A DNA stretch of 64,000 nt, taken from assembly GCF_000374065.1 (NCBI RefSeq), contig NZ_KB893267.1:191-64190 (forward strand). The letters run 5' to 3'. Of the stretch, positions 57,941 through 64,000 are shown piece by piece (within the stretch, counting starts at the first letter, position 1; each line of letters begins with the position of its first letter). The notes below the pieces were generated by a model that was not told the origin of the DNA, made no database searches, and was given only the letters and a program-made list of their open reading frames with translations. This stretch comes from Spirosoma luteum DSM 19990. GTDB taxonomy: Bacteria; Bacteroidota; Bacteroidia; Cytophagales; Spirosomataceae. Made by a program: the position numbers and the translations under genes.

Positions 57941-58977
57941 TTACGACGAAAAAGACTGGTTAGTCATTTTTTGGGGTACAATCGGAGCATAATTGATGTA
58001 CTGGACAAAGCGGGGTTCGTTGGCCGTGTTTGGACTGCTGCCGTGGGGTAAGGCATGGTGCCAGAGAATAAAATCGCCGACACTGGCCGCAATGGGTACT
58101 GGTCCCAAAGCAGTGAGGTCCTGCATTTGAGGGTCTTCCTGGGGAGGCAGTTCAGCTAACCAGTTGGCTAACCGGTGCTGGAAAGCGGGTACCAGGGTGA
58201 ATGCTCCCTGATGCGCCTGCGTATCCGATAGGTAAAGCAATCCCTGCAAGCCAAAAGAAACGGGCCGACCGGCCGCACATCCCAGTGAAGACGGGGACCC
58301 GGAAACGACCAGTTTGTTGTTTCGGGTGGATTGAACCCTACCCGGTCGGTGGTGACCCACAAATCAGTACTCCCCCACAACTGCTCATACGCTCTCCGGA
58401 TGCGGGATGATTCGCGGTTCCGGGTCAAAAGGGGGTGTTGAAATAACTGAACCATGATACCCTGCTTTCCGGGATGGGCATTGTACCAGGTATCCGGACG
58501 ATGACGGTCTATCGCCAGAAAATCGCAGATCAGCTCAACGGTCTGGTCGCAATCCTGCCAGGGAACAGCATTTTTAACCACCACGTAGCCATACCGATCC
58601 CAATGAACAAGATCATCAGCCGACAGGGTTGAGGCTGTTTCCCCGTTGACTGGTTCAGTCTGTGAAGTGCCCGATAGCTGGGCATTAAAAGTCACAACGT
58701 TGCCGGCATTGGGAAGCCCGCCAATGGTAGCCTGAATCCAGTCCTCAAATTCAGCGAAGGTCGGAGCCGTAAGGTACAGATACTGAATGGTTGGTTCAAG
58801 GCCCAGGTTGAGGGCACTCAGAAGGGCAGTATCCAGATCGCTTTCCCCGTCGACCAAACTGCTGTCCAGCCGCCCCTGCCGGTTGGCCATCGCTTTGGCC
58901 CAGTAGCGTTTCAGCTGCATGATGCCTAACCGGCTCATTTCGGTCGAAGCGGCTAATTCGCTGGGTGGTGCTGGCAT
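57941..58977 (-). pseudogene. Phytanoyl-CoA dioxygenase-like (PhyH) enzyme, frameshifted
   Basis: The ATG at 58977 opens a frame with helical N-terminus (QLKRYWAKAMANRQGRLDSS, LGLEPTIQYLYLTAPTFAEF) and a jelly-roll dioxygenase start (DDLVHWDRYGYVVVKNAVPW, ending PGPRLHWDV). The correct continuation RPVSFGLQGLLYLSDTQAHQ lies in the neighbouring frame, up to 57941, where DFILWHHALPHGSSP and RFVQYINYAP follow. The HxD iron pair (LHWDV) is thus separated from the distal His and Arg. One base lost (or two gained) near 58280-58295 explains it. PhyH enzymes hydroxylate with 2-oxoglutarate and Fe(II). Confidence 0.8.
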
Positions 58978-59067
58978 ATTCTGAGAAATTAGGGCTGTAA
59001 GGGTAGAAAACAAGGCTGACCGGGGCTGGTTTTACTGCGTAGCTGGAACCCTGACCTTTTAGTTTGT

Positions 59068-59556
59068 TTACGGGCGCAACCAGCTTGTCATTTGTGGGAA
59101 GCCTCCTGCCACTGTCTGGTCCAGCGTCATACCCATCCAGACCAGCAGGGGTAACCCCACATACGTTTCCTGCGCAAACAGGCCAAGCAACCACTCACTG
59201 TCACCTTTGTAACCCGCCGGGTGAAAAACCACCGCTGCGGGGATTCCTATCTGCTGACAGGCGGCATAGGTCCATAAAATCACCGCCAGTTCGTCCCCCT
59301 GCTTGTCAGGCCGTCCGAGGGTAACGTCTTCGTATAACGACCAGCGTTCGGCGGGCAGGGTTACGGCTATATGGCCCGCTTCGTGGAGCAGGTTGCCCGG
59401 ATACAGTAGTTTTGCTGGATCGACCAGTAACCGGCCCTGGTCAATCAAAATACCCGGCACAAAGGTGGACTGGCTTAGGGTTGTTTCACTAACCGGAATA
59501 CCGATTTCGGCCAGAAAGGCATAAATCTGATCCAGGATGAAGGCTGAGGTATTCAT
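59068..59556 (-). CDS. Small HEAGH putative metallopeptidase-like protein
   Basis: A 162-residue protein. LLHEAGHIAVTLPAE gives H58-E59-xx-H62, a zincin-type motif, and D89-E90 in KQGDELAVILWTYAACQ could give the third ligand. The rest is mixed alpha/beta with a hydrophobic C-terminal part (LLGLFAQETYVGLPLLVWMG). It is shorter than typical secreted zincins and has no signal peptide. Its stop is 91 bp before the PhyH start and its start is 10 bp after the sulfotransferase stop, so it is embedded in the modification run. Whether it is a protease or a metal-binding structural member is unknown. Confidence 0.6.
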   Translation of the reverse strand: MNTSAFILDQIYAFLAEIGIPVSETTLSQSTFVPGILIDQGRLLVDPAKLLYPGNLLHEAGHIAVTLPAERWSLYEDVTLGRPDKQGDELAVILWTYAACQQIGIPAAVVFHPAGYKGDSEWLLGLFAQETYVGLPLLVWMGMTLDQTVAGGFPQMTSWLRP

Positions 59557-59565
59557 GGTTCGTTA

Positions 59566-60558
59566 TCAATCTACCGAAGATGTTCCTTTTTTCTGGCTTA
59601 CCAACTGCTGGTAAAGTTGCCTGACCGGCTCCATATACGAACCGGGCATTGTCTGGGGTACAGCCTCCTGAAAGGGCTGATCGGGGTACTTGCTGTGGTA
59701 CTGACTCCGCTGCTTCATGGCAGTCCGTTCGGCCGGAGTAGCATCTATCGTTACCAGCGTAGTGAGCTGCCCCAGCATGGCTACCCCACTGTCCTGATAA
59801 GGCAACGGATAAACATTTTCGTCTACCTCCTGTATGGCCAGCATCTGCTGAAAATAGCGTTCAAGCACCGCGGCCGTGTAGTGATCCTGATTCATGTGCC
59901 GGGTAAGGGCTGGATCAAACCCAAACAGTTCGGGTTCAATCAGGCCCGGAACGGCCTGCATCCCCCGGCGTTTCTGGTGGGACCGAATCACGGCGTCGGG
60001 CGAGCGGAACAACAGGATGAACGGAACCGTTGGGTACAGTCGGCGGAAAGTATCGTAGAACAGCAGATGCCAGCTATCCAATTTGATGAAGAATCGCGTT
60101 TCATTTCCCGTTCGCTGGCTGCCTATCAGGCGAATAACTGCTTTCAGCGCAGCATCCCGTTCATCAGGCGATAGGGAGATGGCAGGCTCACGGTAGGGTA
60201 ACCGTAAAATCTCGTCAAGCAACGGCATTTCGGATAGCGTAATGTGCCGCTCGGGCAACCCCAGCAATTGAGAAAGCAGGGTGGAACCGCAACGGGATAT
60301 GTGAAAGATAAAGGCGTTGGGCGAAATACTAACGCTTCCCTGAGCCGCCTGGATCAGACCATCCAGCGTAGTGGCCGAATGCCAGCCCGTAACGTTGACC
60401 GGATAGCTCTTGCAGCGGATGACTGTTTCCTCGAAAAAAGGCTCCGTAAAGCGGTGAGTACCCACGTAGAGCCACCGGAAAAGAAGTTGCTCGTCTACCA
60501 CGCGTAGCTGGTAGGGAATCCAGTTCTCTAGCGGCTCATCCATCCATTCATTCGGCAT
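59566..60558 (-). CDS. Sulfotransferase family protein
   Basis: A 330-residue protein of the cytosolic sulfotransferase fold. The PAPS 5'-phosphosulfate loop is AFIFHISRCGSTLLSQLL (near 80-97), and the 3'-phosphate-binding region is FILLFRSPDAVIRSHQKRRG (near 180-200). No membrane segment is visible. It transfers sulfate from PAPS to an OH or NH acceptor; the acceptor cannot be read. An APS kinase, the PAPS-making enzyme, is divergent at 61329. The hydroxylase is 23 bp upstream and the HEAGH gene 9 bp downstream on the same strand, so coupled hydroxylation-sulfation is a natural model. Confidence 0.88.
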   Translation of the reverse strand: MPNEWMDEPLENWIPYQLRVVDEQLLFRWLYVGTHRFTEPFFEETVIRCKSYPVNVTGWHSATTLDGLIQAAQGSVSISPNAFIFHISRCGSTLLSQLLGLPERHITLSEMPLLDEILRLPYREPAISLSPDERDAALKAVIRLIGSQRTGNETRFFIKLDSWHLLFYDTFRRLYPTVPFILLFRSPDAVIRSHQKRRGMQAVPGLIEPELFGFDPALTRHMNQDHYTAAVLERYFQQMLAIQEVDENVYPLPYQDSGVAMLGQLTTLVTIDATPAERTAMKQRSQYHSKYPDQPFQEAVPQTMPGSYMEPVRQLYQQLVSQKKGTSSVD

Positions 60559-60581
60559 CTGTTTGTACCGTTACGTTTGGT

Positions 60582-61292
60582 TTACTCCGTTTGTCCCGCC
60601 GACAGTTTATCCATTAACCGGCGGGCGGTATCGGTATTGTGCCTCGCCAGTTCTGCCATAATCTGCCGGGTCAGTTCCAGAGAATGCGGATGGACCCGCT
60701 GTTCGGCGGCAAAGTCGTAGCCCGCTTTCAGGAAAAGCGCATCGGACCAGGCATTGCGCCGACAGTCGAGTACCAGATGCACCCGATTTGTCAAACCATC
60801 GTTACGGACGCTGTGCAACAGATCGAAGTTCGCGTACCAGCATTCGCCTTCGGCCATGGGCAATGCCTGACCGTCTACCCGGAAGGCCACTTCACTTCCT
60901 GTTTGAATGAGAACGTGCAGCCGAAAAAATCCGTGCTCATAACTGGTATTCCCATCCCGATGCTCGTGAATAACACTACCCGGTGCCAATGCCAGCAGCC
61001 GGACCGACTCCTGCTGACACTGAAACTGGCTCAGGACTGTCTGAAAATAAGGGCACTTTGCCAGCAGGGGCGTATCGGCATACTCACCCGGATGCGCGCG
61101 GATATCGATTTCGCTTCCCGATGCAGACCGCAACGCAATGCTGGTCCAGCGCCCCGAGAAATCGGCCCGGTTAAAATGACTGGGCCAGTCAAGCTGCTGG
61201 CATACGAGTAAATCGTCTGCTAAACGAACGGGATCGAACAGAAAAGGTAACCGAAAGAAGCGATTATCAGGATGTACGGTTAGATCAGTCAT
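60582..61292 (-). CDS. Aspartyl/asparaginyl beta-hydroxylase-like 2OG dioxygenase
   Basis: A 236-residue jelly-roll protein. Landmarks are RLLALAPGSVIHEHRDGNTS (H109, H111, D113), FRLHVLIQTG, ECWYANFDLLHSVRNDG (H160) and RVHLVLDCRRN (R170, H172), the typical HxD, H and R pattern of this family; the exact iron ligands should be confirmed in a structure. Such enzymes hydroxylate Asp or Asn side chains in proteins or peptides. The last ~45 residues are helical. It begins the minus-strand run with the sulfotransferase, 36 bp from the divergent APS kinase start. Confidence 0.85.
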   Translation of the reverse strand: MTDLTVHPDNRFFRLPFLFDPVRLADDLLVCQQLDWPSHFNRADFSGRWTSIALRSASGSEIDIRAHPGEYADTPLLAKCPYFQTVLSQFQCQQESVRLLALAPGSVIHEHRDGNTSYEHGFFRLHVLIQTGSEVAFRVDGQALPMAEGECWYANFDLLHSVRNDGLTNRVHLVLDCRRNAWSDALFLKAGYDFAAEQRVHPHSLELTRQIMAELARHNTDTARRLMDKLSAGQTE

Positions 61293-61328
61293 GGTTCAGC
61301 CTTCGGATACTGGTTTGATGGTAGTATT

Positions 61329-61862
61329 ATGGTTTTTGTTCAACTAACGGGCTTGTCGGGTGCCGGTAAAACGACGCTGGCTTACGGGGTTCAGAAGCGA
61401 CTACAGCGCCTGGGCTACTCAGTGGAGGTGCTGGACGGCGATGAGTGCCGGAGTGCGTTCTGGCCTGAGCTGGGTTTCTCGCCGGATGATCGCCAGGAAA
61501 ACCTGCGCCGAATGGGGTTGCTGGCTCACTGGCTAACCCGGCACGGAATCCTTGTGCTGCTGGCTGCCATTAACCCGTACCAGAAAGCTCGTGACGAACT
61601 GAGCCGCCAAAACCAGCCCGCCAAAACCGTTTTCGTCGATTGTGGACTGGAAACGCTTATCCAACGGGATACAAAAGGCTTGTACGCCCGTGCTCTACTG
61701 CCCGATAATCATCCGGATAAACTACGCAACCTGACGGGCATCAACGCCCCGTACGAAGCGCCAATTACGCCTGATCTGATTATTCAGACCGACCAGTACA
61801 ATCAGAACGACTGCGAGGAACAATTGTCTTTGTTTATTCTGACGGCCTTGAATAACACCTGA
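61329..61862 (+). CDS. cysC: Adenylylsulfate kinase (APS kinase)
   Basis: A 177-residue P-loop kinase. GLSGAGKTT (8-16) begins the fold, then EVLDGDECRSAFWPELGFSP (DGD-x-x-R), DDRQENLRRMGLLAHWL, KGLYARA and NLTGINAPYEAP, all diagnostic of CysC. It phosphorylates adenosine 5'-phosphosulfate to PAPS. No sulfurylase (cysDN or sat) is in the window, so its APS must come from elsewhere. Its divergent position next to the sulfotransferase run suggests a dedicated PAPS supply. Confidence 0.92.
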   Translation: MVFVQLTGLSGAGKTTLAYGVQKRLQRLGYSVEVLDGDECRSAFWPELGFSPDDRQENLRRMGLLAHWLTRHGILVLLAAINPYQKARDELSRQNQPAKTVFVDCGLETLIQRDTKGLYARALLPDNHPDKLRNLTGINAPYEAPITPDLIIQTDQYNQNDCEEQLSLFILTALNNT

Positions 61863-62442
61863 ACGCTACCTCTAGTGATACTTTTGTTTAGCAGGTTTCC
61901 TGTTACTACTGCGTGGTAAAGACTATACCGTTTAATAAGTTTTGCTAATAGAATACAATTTTAAAGAAGTAACTAAGAATCCGGTGTGCCTTTAGTTAAT
62001 CATGAAGGTGCTTTCCGGTTAGTGTCTTCTATCAAAAGCGTAACGTTTATCAATCCTGTCTTAGGGGGTGTTGACAATTAGCTAAAGATAAGGCTGGTCT
62101 GCAATTTTGTGAATGCGTCGTTATGGGTGTTCTTCTTCCAACGGGGCGATTTTACACGCTAAGCAACTAAACACCTAGTTTTTTTTGGGGATCCCGAAGC
62201 GGTCGCCAATGATCCGAGTCGAATGGTGCAGGGTTGGAAAACGAGTCCTTACCCAGTCAGTTGATGTGTTCAAAACGGCCGGACGACAAGTACTCAAAAT
62301 GAGCCCTAAATCTGTCAAGCTATTTCAGGGATATACACATTTTAGAACACTACCAATTTTTAAACATGTTGTTAATAAATTCCAAACTATTAGGTAAATA
62401 ATTGTTTTTTACTCTACATTTAGTTCTAATAACCCCTGGCTC
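61863..62442. other. 580-bp gene-free stretch with a possible IS-end-like motif
   Basis: No supported gene. GGGGGTGTTGACAATT (from about 62067) resembles IS5-family element ends (GGGTGTTGACAAA type), and the following 80 bp on the minus strand translate to a short basic stretch that could be a transposase remnant; this is weak. Another AT-rich part (62330-62410) may hold the promoter of the next gene, but no TAnnTTTG match was found. Confidence 0.35.
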
Positions 62443-63093
62443 GTGAAAAGAAGAACCTTCCTCTGCGCCTCCATACTCAGTGTAGCCGGTGCAGTCAAAG
62501 CATTAGCCACACCTGTCAGTTTTCTGCCCTTACAACAGCAATGGCTAGCTAAGTACCTGGTCGCCGTTGGCGCTCATCCGGTAAATCATTGGCTGGCACC
62601 GGATCAGGACCTGAACAGGCAGCTACAGACCGCTTCGGCTTCGTTTTTAAAATCAGGCTATCGGGCCTTAGGTACCACACACTACTATTGTAATAACGAC
62701 CAGGTTGCTGTTTTTCCTCTGGCGCTGCATGCACCGGAGACGGGTATGATTGATCTGGCTGTTTTATTTTTTACAAAAAATACTGCCACCCACAGCTGGA
62801 AATATACCCATACGTTTTCGGGCTTTGATCTGGAGGCTGTAGGCAAGGTTATGGAGCGGCTCGGTATGCCGACCCATGAGCAGCAAGCCATTGATCGGTT
62901 CGTACCGGTATATCAAGTGCCTCATCAGAGACGGCCTTTTACCTTTCAGACTGCTGCAGGGATGCTTCAACTGAAAGTAATCCTGGAATCGCAGGAAACC
63001 TGGCTGGATGTAAAAGTAGTCGAAGACCGTACTACTTTGCTGGATTCTCGTTTCATTTCTAGGCATACCCTACATAACACCACAGTAGTGTGA
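62443..63093 (+). CDS. Secreted hypothetical protein upstream of the collar genes
   Basis: GTG start at 62443; 216 residues. The N-terminus KRRTFLCASILSVAGAVKAL is a signal peptide with a twin-Arg-like KRRTFL, possibly Tat. The mature part alternates strands and loops with several aromatic residues (YCNNDQVAVFPLALH, NTATHSWKYTHTFSGFDLEA) and ends with VKVVEDRTTLLDS. No family was recognised. The collar gene begins 33 bp downstream on the same strand, so it is probably part of the same unit. It lies between the APS kinase and the collar genes. Confidence 0.65.
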   Translation: MKRRTFLCASILSVAGAVKALATPVSFLPLQQQWLAKYLVAVGAHPVNHWLAPDQDLNRQLQTASASFLKSGYRALGTTHYYCNNDQVAVFPLALHAPETGMIDLAVLFFTKNTATHSWKYTHTFSGFDLEAVGKVMERLGMPTHEQQAIDRFVPVYQVPHQRRPFTFQTAAGMLQLKVILESQETWLDVKVVEDRTTLLDSRFISRHTLHNTTVV

Positions 63094-63125
63094 CAAATCA
63101 ACTATAACCTAAATACTTTGAAATC

Positions 63126-63641
63126 ATGGCTGAACCTTTTCTTTCGGAAATACGCATGGTGAGCTTCGAGTTTGCTCCTAAAGGGTGGGCCCTCACCAAC
63201 GGGCAACTCCTGCCAATTAACCAAAATCAGGCTTTGTTTTCTCTGCTGGGTACTACTTATGGCGGAGACGGTCGGGTTAACTTTGCCTTGCCGGACTTTC
63301 GCGGACGCACGCCCATTCACGTCGGAAGCGGGCATACCCTGGGCGAACGGGGAGGGGAACAGGCGCATACGGTCTCCATTGCCGAAATGCCCACCCATAC
63401 CCACGCGCTCCAGGCCGTAGTTCCCGCCGACCCCATTACCAACGTAAACAACCCGGGGGGGGCATTTCTGGCTACCTCTGCTCCTACTACCCTCTACCAA
63501 TCGGGTAGTGCCCAACTGGTAGCCACGGCTTCTAATACGGTAACTAGCACCGGAAGCAGTCAAGCGCATCTTAATATGCAGCCATTTCTGACGCTTACCT
63601 TCTGCATAGCCCTGCAGGGTATATTCCCTAGTCGTAACTAG
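63126..63641 (+). CDS. Phage tail-collar domain protein (MdpB-like)
   Basis: A 171-residue protein. The collar domain (about 6-62) is complete: FLSEIRMVSFEFAPKGWALT, NGQLLPINQNQALFSLLGTT, YGGDGRVNFALPDFRGRTPI. The middle (about 75-95) has the usual His-rich HTVSIAEMPTHTHALQ segment. The end reads HLNMQPFLTLTFCIALQGIF. Such proteins occur as phage fibre ends and as free-standing chromosomal genes in many bacteria, including cyanobacterial MdpB-type proteins. No capsid, terminase or tail-tube gene is near, so a complete phage is not indicated here. Confidence 0.9.
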   Translation: MAEPFLSEIRMVSFEFAPKGWALTNGQLLPINQNQALFSLLGTTYGGDGRVNFALPDFRGRTPIHVGSGHTLGERGGEQAHTVSIAEMPTHTHALQAVVPADPITNVNNPGGAFLATSAPTTLYQSGSAQLVATASNTVTSTGSSQAHLNMQPFLTLTFCIALQGIFPSRN

Positions 63642-63679
63642 TATCGGTTGATTTTTCAAACAAAAAAGAACCTAAAAAA

Positions 63680-64000
63680 ATGGCGCAACCTTACGTTGGT
63701 GAAATCAGGATGTTCGCGGGCAATTTTGCGCCCGCCGGATGGATGTTTTGTGAAGGGCAGCTCTTACCTATTGCCGAAAACGAAACGCTCTTTCAGCTAA
63801 TCGGCACTACCTATGGGGGCGACGGGCAAAGTACCTTTGCGCTACCAGACATGAGGGGTCGGCTACCCGTACATCAGGGTAGTGGTTTTGTACTGGCCGA
63901 AACGGGCGGAGCTGAAGAAGTTACGCTTACTGTCAATCAGATACCTGCCCACTCGCATCCATTTCTAGCCACTACGTCGGCAGCTGATTCACCCAACCCG
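63680..64000 (+). CDS. Second tail-collar domain protein (partial, runs off the window)
   Basis: The ATG at 63680 opens a frame of 107 codons that is not closed at the window end. It reads MAQPYVGEIRMFAGNFAPAG, then WMFCEGQLLPIAENETLFQL, IGTTYGGDGQSTFALPDMRG and RLPVHQGSG, the collar fold again, then IPAHSHPFLATTSA. It is a paralogue of the preceding gene, 38 bp away on the same strand. Tandem sets of such genes are common in Bacteroidota; a third copy may lie beyond the window. Confidence 0.88.
   Translation, partial: MAQPYVGEIRMFAGNFAPAGWMFCEGQLLPIAENETLFQLIGTTYGGDGQSTFALPDMRGRLPVHQGSGFVLAETGGAEEVTLTVNQIPAHSHPFLATTSAADSPNP

Follow-up and report, generated by a model that had tools for sequence, protein, structure and literature searches.

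Flagellin glycosylation loci are surface-protein modification islands, in which some strains carry accessory enzymes next to the gene for the surface protein that they modify. The locus described here shares this arrangement; unlike those loci, it would carry out hydroxylation and sulfation, and the proposed site is the last residue of the protein. It lies in a 64,000-nucleotide stretch of the genome of Spirosoma luteum DSM 19990 (6.6 Mb in 68 contigs; contig NZ_KB893267.1, positions 191 to 64,190; hereafter the window) and combines a sulfotransferase (ST), an Fe(II)/2-oxoglutarate (2OG) hydroxylase resembling aspartyl/asparaginyl beta-hydroxylase (AspH), an adenosine 5'-phosphosulfate (APS) kinase and tandem genes for short tail-collar proteins (collars). 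Here, ST and AspH are identified as a conserved, sometimes fused pair that lies beside short collar proteins or shares a genome with them, and collars in genomes with both enzymes show a tendency towards the C-terminal sequence -(F/Y)P(S/A/P/T)RN. The link between enzymes and collars is well supported; the site and the chemistry we infer from sequence.

Each component has described relatives. Human AspH carries a tetratricopeptide repeat (TPR) domain and has an EGF-like client. The window AspH shares the PF05118 family or the fold with human AspH and with L-proline cis-4-hydroxylase, and the HxD...H and Arg residues are conserved in its family. Unlike human AspH it has neither a TPR domain nor an EGF-like client, its proposed target being a C-terminal Asn, and unlike the proposed enzyme L-proline cis-4-hydroxylase acts on a free amino acid. 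Peptide-modifying dioxygenases were reportedly surveyed by Iyer and colleagues in 2010. The collars share the PF07484 domain with gp12 of the T4 short tail fibres, which are trimers; the PDB matches to gp12 are weak (E 0.027), a long tail fibre (8kec) matches better (E 3.4e-5) and PHROGs tail families also match. Unlike gp12, the collars are chromosomal, about 170 aa long, arranged in tandem and beside a giant surface-protein gene. Among the neighbours scanned with Pfam, which are not all of the ORFs, no phage gene besides the collars scored above cut-off. Bacterial protein sulfation is, to our knowledge, described in few cases. The RaxX-RaxST system of Xanthomonas, compared here by description and not by sequence, likewise has a dedicated sulfotransferase with a client and a supply of 3'-phosphoadenosine 5'-phosphosulfate (PAPS). 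RaxST, however, acts on a Tyr in a small secreted peptide, whereas no Tyr is invariant at the site proposed here, a hydroxylase is paired with the ST and the client would be a collar protein. RaxST was modelled on human tyrosylprotein sulfotransferase (TPST) 2 (PMC6637879), and the TPST fold also ranks high for the window ST.

The reading towards which we lean, by a little, is that of an accessory module in which AspH hydroxylates the C-terminal Asn of a collar and the resulting hydroxyl is sulfated by ST, using PAPS made by the local kinase. With Fe(II), O2 and 2OG, AspH would hydroxylate the Asn side chain, recognising it in the context of the Arg before it and the free carboxylate, and ST would then transfer sulfate from PAPS, supplied by the neighbouring APS kinase, onto the new hydroxyl. 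Once modified, the collars (perhaps trimers) would bear clustered negative charges at their C-termini and would act at the cell surface with the downstream giant Ig-like protein, for example in adhesion or recognition. That the collars are clients of the enzymes is quite probable, and the C-terminal Asn is a reasonably likely hydroxylated residue; sulfation of its hydroxyl is put forward tentatively.

A profile of the ST (A1) was searched against a collection of named genomes, and the best 80 of 240 confirmed places were taken (L005-L084), from Bacteroidota (Spirosoma, Mucilaginibacter, Pedobacter, Chitinophagaceae, Emticicia and others) and Burkholderiales (Collimonas and one metagenome-assembled genome). 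Neighbour families were defined by profile and by unbiased clustering; flanks were complete for 43 of the 80 and many others end at contig ends. The fetched flanks hold AspH at 72 loci, a collar at 58, an APS kinase and a giant protein at 47 each, a Peripla_BP_6-like (PBP-like) protein at 36 and a formyltransferase-like protein at 34. Where the two are separate genes (69 loci), AspH is no more than 150 nt away from ST in 51, and they are fused in three loci (L021, L044 and L050) and also in P0108. The nearest collar is a median of 2.2 kb from ST and at most 8.2 kb (56 loci measured). For the 22 ST loci without a linked collar, 21 genomes were searched (that of L077 was excluded) and 19 held collars elsewhere; collars are present in 77 of the 79 ST genomes examined. 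Among 192 genomes of the window's order, ST was found in 7, AspH in 11 (ten above 200 bits, one at 44) and collars in 58; six of the seven ST genes are within 8 kb of a collar, and all seven ST genomes and all ten with a strong AspH have collars, as do the AspH genomes of the Burkholderiales (3/3) and Chitinophagales (11/11). The combination recurs across many genera and is therefore more than chance; a chance neighbourhood is rejected by co-occurrence in the order-set genomes, at the 80 ST loci and in the search of unlinked genomes, and the gene set is almost certainly real and conserved.

A further sign that the collars are involved comes from their C-termini. Collars from enzyme loci (112) were compared with collars from loci without AspH or ST (67) over 184 columns by two symmetric measures, and by both the most-differing column is the last residue, which is Asn in 109/112 against 17/67 (difference 0.72; runner-up column 0.40). 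A comparison of collars with and without the enzymes, proposed in the first-pass annotation of this DNA, thus finds that the last residue changes with them. The enzyme-negative set included nine collars from G092 and G175, genomes that have the enzymes elsewhere; without these, C-terminal Asn falls to 10/58. Collars in enzyme loci show the ending given above: among 104 collars at the 80 ST loci, 103 end in Asn and 100 in Arg-Asn (RN), every one of the 58 collar-bearing loci has at least one RN collar and 54 have RN collars exclusively. In the 19 genomes with unlinked ST and collars, 39/45 read collars end in RN, with at least one in each genome, and therefore the match appears in trans too. 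Position -3 of the 104 collars is Ser in 85, Ala in 10, Pro in 6 and Thr in 3, and at position -5 there are 84 with Phe, 19 with Tyr and one with Trp. Ser at -3 and Tyr at -5 were rejected as the main site; neither residue, both named as candidate sites in the first-pass annotation, is invariant near the collar end.

Collars were also read in three orders, from fetched stretches only. Only collars of 130-290 aa whose stop codon was reached within that stretch were kept, and the tree and control sets also required [FYW]P near the end; usable collars were obtained from 35/58 collar genomes in the window's order (39 fetched, mostly of high collar score), 26/32 in the Burkholderiales and 31/34 in the Chitinophagales. 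RN ends were found in 17/22 collars and 10/10 genomes with AspH in the window's order, against 5/65 collars and 5/25 genomes without it; in one of these genomes (G153) AspH was recognised before the collar was read, and the collar ends in -PSRN. The corresponding collar counts are 5/8 and 6/39 in the Burkholderiales. Over the three orders, 24/34 collars from the 14 genomes with both AspH and ST have the RN end, against 27/154 from the 68 others, and at least one RN collar is present in 14/14 against 24/68 genomes (Fisher 4.4e-6); this comparison leaves out three AspH-only genomes, and its 154 collars include 19 from seven genomes with a divergent or distant AspH, without which the count is 20/135. 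With a collar tree that leaves out the last seven residues, 0/20,000 Brownian-threshold simulations gave a difference as large as the one observed, whichever of four phylogenetic-signal strengths was used, and permutation of genomes within orders gave p = 5e-5. A two-state tree model was set aside, its equilibrium RN frequency being unrealistically low, and the Brownian-threshold and permutation tests were therefore relied on. Where a single collar was read, RN was found in 5/5 pair-positive and 3/24 pair-negative genomes (p = 0.0005); where several were read, all copies end in RN in 4/9 against 2/44. Many Chitinophagales collars end in -SRS and not -SRN (G370, G397, G494, G509, G388, G417 and G465), in some genomes with divergent AspH paralogues and in some without; these ends are possibly a second specificity.

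Three genomes (G109, G153 and G175) have AspH near a collar on the same contig and lack ST, and RN is found in 5/5 of their read collars, an indication that it is AspH that recognises the end. The same genomes favour an alternative in which AspH acts on the collar C-terminus and ST on another target in the same surface structure, the giant protein or its glycans, and the giant protein at 47 of the 80 ST loci fits this as well. The fusions and the spacing of no more than 150 nt in 51/69 pairs suggest instead consecutive steps on one substrate, and a division of targets is rather improbable.

All of the genes named in the first-pass annotation are present in the window (PhyH-type dioxygenase, HEAGH protein, ST, AspH, APS kinase, secreted protein and collars). 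Its two tandem collars are indeed in tandem, and their number is three, the third lying beyond the window in the adjoining stretch L004:

57941..59013, minus strand: frameshifted 2OG dioxygenase of the PhyH type, in two overlapping pieces (57941-58360 and 58168-59013); an optional component of the module
59068..59556, minus strand: HEAGH protein, 162 aa, with an HExxH-like motif; found at 33/80 ST loci
59566..60558, minus strand: ST, 330 aa, assigned by homology and fold prediction
60582..61292, minus strand: AspH-like Fe(II)/2OG hydroxylase, 236 aa (PF05118)
61329..61862, plus strand: APS kinase, for PAPS supply (PF01583, TIGR00455)
62443..63093, plus strand: secreted protein with an RR-type N-terminus, from its N-terminal sequence (signal judged by eye)
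63126..63641, plus strand: collar protein 1, C-terminus -FPSRN (PF07484, 93 bits)
63633..63638, plus strand: Arg-Asn codons at the C-terminus of collar 1, where modification is proposed; -RN tracks AspH and ST across genomes
63680..64000 and on to L004:8374, plus strand: collar protein 2, C-terminus -FPSPT (PF07484, 101 bits)
L004:8445-8963, outside the window: collar protein 3, C-terminus -FPPRG (PF07484, 101 bits)

The start codons of the divergent AspH and APS kinase genes are 36 nt apart. Just past the window, L004 holds collar 3, a GNAT gene, a DUF6916 protein and a giant Ig-like protein of more than 1703 aa with Big_9, He_PIG and cadherin-like domains, which runs off the contig. The three collars end in -SRN, -SPT and -PRG, and the motif is thus on collar 1 only, which would leave collars 2 and 3 as unmodified partners. 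Relatives that lack the enzymes and share the GNAT-DUF6916 layout (L090, L092-L095) have the ends -SPN or -SQN, -SPT, and -PRT, -PRP or -PRS in this order, and the end of collar 1 differs from its counterparts there by the Arg.

The window ST scores 22 bits against Sulfotransfer_3, under the 27-bit cut-off; its family is clear by homology, with 682 homologues at E 1e-3, and the closest among the named loci returned is that of Spirosoma spitsbergense (80% identity). No relative of ST was found in a viral contig collection, and a viral origin was rejected. The motif SRCGSTL is invariant in 19 aligned sequences (A1), and TPSTs rank first for the predicted fold in both fold comparisons. R89, E110 and S193 are invariant in the 19 rows and align, in a sub-significant profile match to TPST1, with its Arg, Glu and Ser; residues of these kinds are named as essential in sulfotransferases (PMC6637879). 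Of the features usual in TPST and RaxST enzymes, the ST shows the PAPS-binding Arg and Ser motifs with a His/Glu base between them; the collar tail, the part of the proposed client in which the site was sought, offers no constant Tyr acceptor, its position -5 being mostly Phe.

AspH matches PF05118 at 66.3 bits (cut-off 22.6), and H111, D113, H160 and R170, the HxD...H plus Arg expected of this type, are invariant in 24 sequences. Its nearest fold is that of L-proline cis-4-hydroxylase, with human AspH from rank 8. A free-amino-acid hydroxylase as nearest solved relative speaks for another explanation, that AspH and ST make a hydroxylated, sulfated metabolite, surface lipid or glycan which lectin-like collar tips bind, the collar being receptor and not substrate. 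A very weak match of AspH to the lipid A hydroxylase LpxO (NCBIfam; 17.9 bits, cut-off 500) and the formyltransferase-like gene at 34/80 loci, which fits sugar or small-molecule chemistry, point the same way. Such an explanation leaves unaccounted for both the change of the last collar residue with the enzymes and the RN ends that accompany AspH without ST, and we consider it unlikely. In L108 (14581-15516) and L259 (9713-10510), AspH has an extra C-terminal stretch that looks Nif11-type-leader-like by eye, and in L260 (7403-9547) the AspH frame, which adjoins ST and three collars, has a long N-terminal extension that looks protein-methyltransferase-like by eye.

The APS kinase matches PF01583 at 140 bits and the equivalog TIGR00455 at 161.5 bits, above its curated cut-off of 138.7, and is the sole strong match in the genome. 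A second match (22.2 bits, cut-off 21.1; positions 2-44 of a 441-aa frame) is probably mere P-loop likeness. PF01507, the family of CysD and CysH, has two strong, adjacent matches on another contig, besides a weaker third; the cell therefore probably handles APS, and the window kinase is probably the main maker of its PAPS. In relatives, an APS kinase is near ST in 47/80 loci.

Several results weigh against modification of the collar end by AspH and ST. Two ST genomes had no collar found, and in the 192-genome order set ST is missing from 51/58 collar genomes. The first-pass annotation had stated that the functional link would fail if most related genomes kept the enzymes without collars or the reverse: the enzymes rarely occur without collars (77/79), while collars without ST are common, which counts against a strict link. 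The closest solved relative of AspH hydroxylates free proline. TPSTs are only about one Z unit ahead of polyketide sulfotransferases (14.7 to 13.7 against 13.6), and the ST matches the TPST profile at E 0.07, short of significance, with K159 one position off the aligned TPST Lys; its proposed acceptor also differs from that of human TPST1/2. A prediction for the Chitinophagales, registered beforehand, was that RN would be found in 90% of collars and in all genomes with AspH (E 1e-8); it failed, with RN in 14/29 collars and 8/11 genomes having any AspH, against 9/42 collars and 9/20 genomes without. In seven of these 11 AspH genomes AspH is divergent or away from ST and collars, one of them (G492) having a weak ST match (78 bits) elsewhere in the genome. 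With AspH near ST, a restriction made post hoc, the counts are 7/9 collars and 4/4 genomes, of which two (G207 and G487) had already been read before the prediction; the two newly read (G472 and G497) gave RN in 4/4 collars. RN is also found without the pair, in 27/154 collars, and at least one RN copy is present in 21/44 pair-negative multi-collar genomes (9/9 pair-positive), thus one RN copy in a set is weak evidence. The 80-locus and order sets are not independent (L013 is G179, L016 is G092 and G198, L023 is G034, L017 is G213, L052 is G207 and L082 is G487), and this overlap together with the 21/44 figure lowers our confidence. RN is on one of the three window collars, and therefore the window alone proves nothing.

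The RN ends of pair-negative collars and multi-collar genomes, the failed loose-threshold Chitinophagales replicate and the single RN collar of the window are what would be seen if RN were a marker of lineage or locus type, the module riding with collar subtypes that were already RN without any chemical link. The tree-based simulation and the within-order permutation oppose this, as do the single-collar genomes (5/5 against 3/24), the RN ends of unlinked collars in ST genomes and the presence of RN in Collimonas as well as in Bacteroidota, and we regard it as very unlikely.

Because most collar genomes lack ST while the giant protein is still near the collars, we read the enzymes as an optional, accessory module on an older collar-giant locus. 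Of 40 loci fetched from the order-set genomes, 33 are without AspH and ST, and in 30 of these a match to the giant protein lies close to the collars. The interval between the collars and the giant gene is often occupied by PBP-like, formyltransferase-like or GNAT and DUF6916 genes. Among the giant proteins of relatives compared with sorting domains of the type IX secretion system, one of the three tested is above the curated cut-off and two are just below. The three alternative occupants of the interval (L090, L092-L095, L004:8982-9816) may be further collar-modifying or chaperoning systems.

The remaining neighbours are less constant. The PhyH-type dioxygenase, matched to PF05721 on one piece (26.8 bits), is found at 18/80 ST loci and is an optional part of the module. 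When searched separately, its two pieces match residues 249-352 and 3-246 of a 352-aa Spirosoma spitsbergense homologue (L005); the reading frame is therefore broken between them, bearing out the frameshift noted in the first-pass annotation. The model proposed there from proximity, of a peptide or collar protein hydroxylated and then sulfated, is supported in its collar client, given the 77/79 genomes and the C-terminus that changes with the enzymes, and not in its candidate Tyr or Ser sites or in a role for PhyH, which is optional and here broken. A PKHD-type 2OG hydroxylase (2OG-FeII_Oxy_3) at 11/80 ST loci (e.g. L018, L041 and L063) is an additional optional oxygenase of the module. The HEAGH protein has no Pfam or NCBIfam match, and its H58, E59, A60 and H62 show conservation of 95% or more across an alignment of 32 sequences; HEAGH as the cause of RN is doubted from a single case, G069, which has HEAGH, lacks AspH and has a collar ending in -ARS. 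The secreted protein (62443-63093) had no match in family searches. In some relatives proteins with similar N-termini adjoin collars; related forms occur in few loci only, and it was rejected as a general client.

Among the matches listed from a literature search with most subscription journals outside its coverage, none described C-terminal hydroxylation that creates a sulfate acceptor, and none was relevant to collar genes with these enzymes. Hydroxylation, sulfation and a C-terminal Asn are also features of plant peptide hormones read by receptor kinases (PMC6749341); the parallel to the collar C-termini may be coincidence.

The covariation of the collar end with AspH and ST offers a precise and cheap target for testing, a single C-terminal peptide with expected masses of +16 and +96. 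If the proposed modification is true, it would provide a function for tandem collar genes that stand outside phages.

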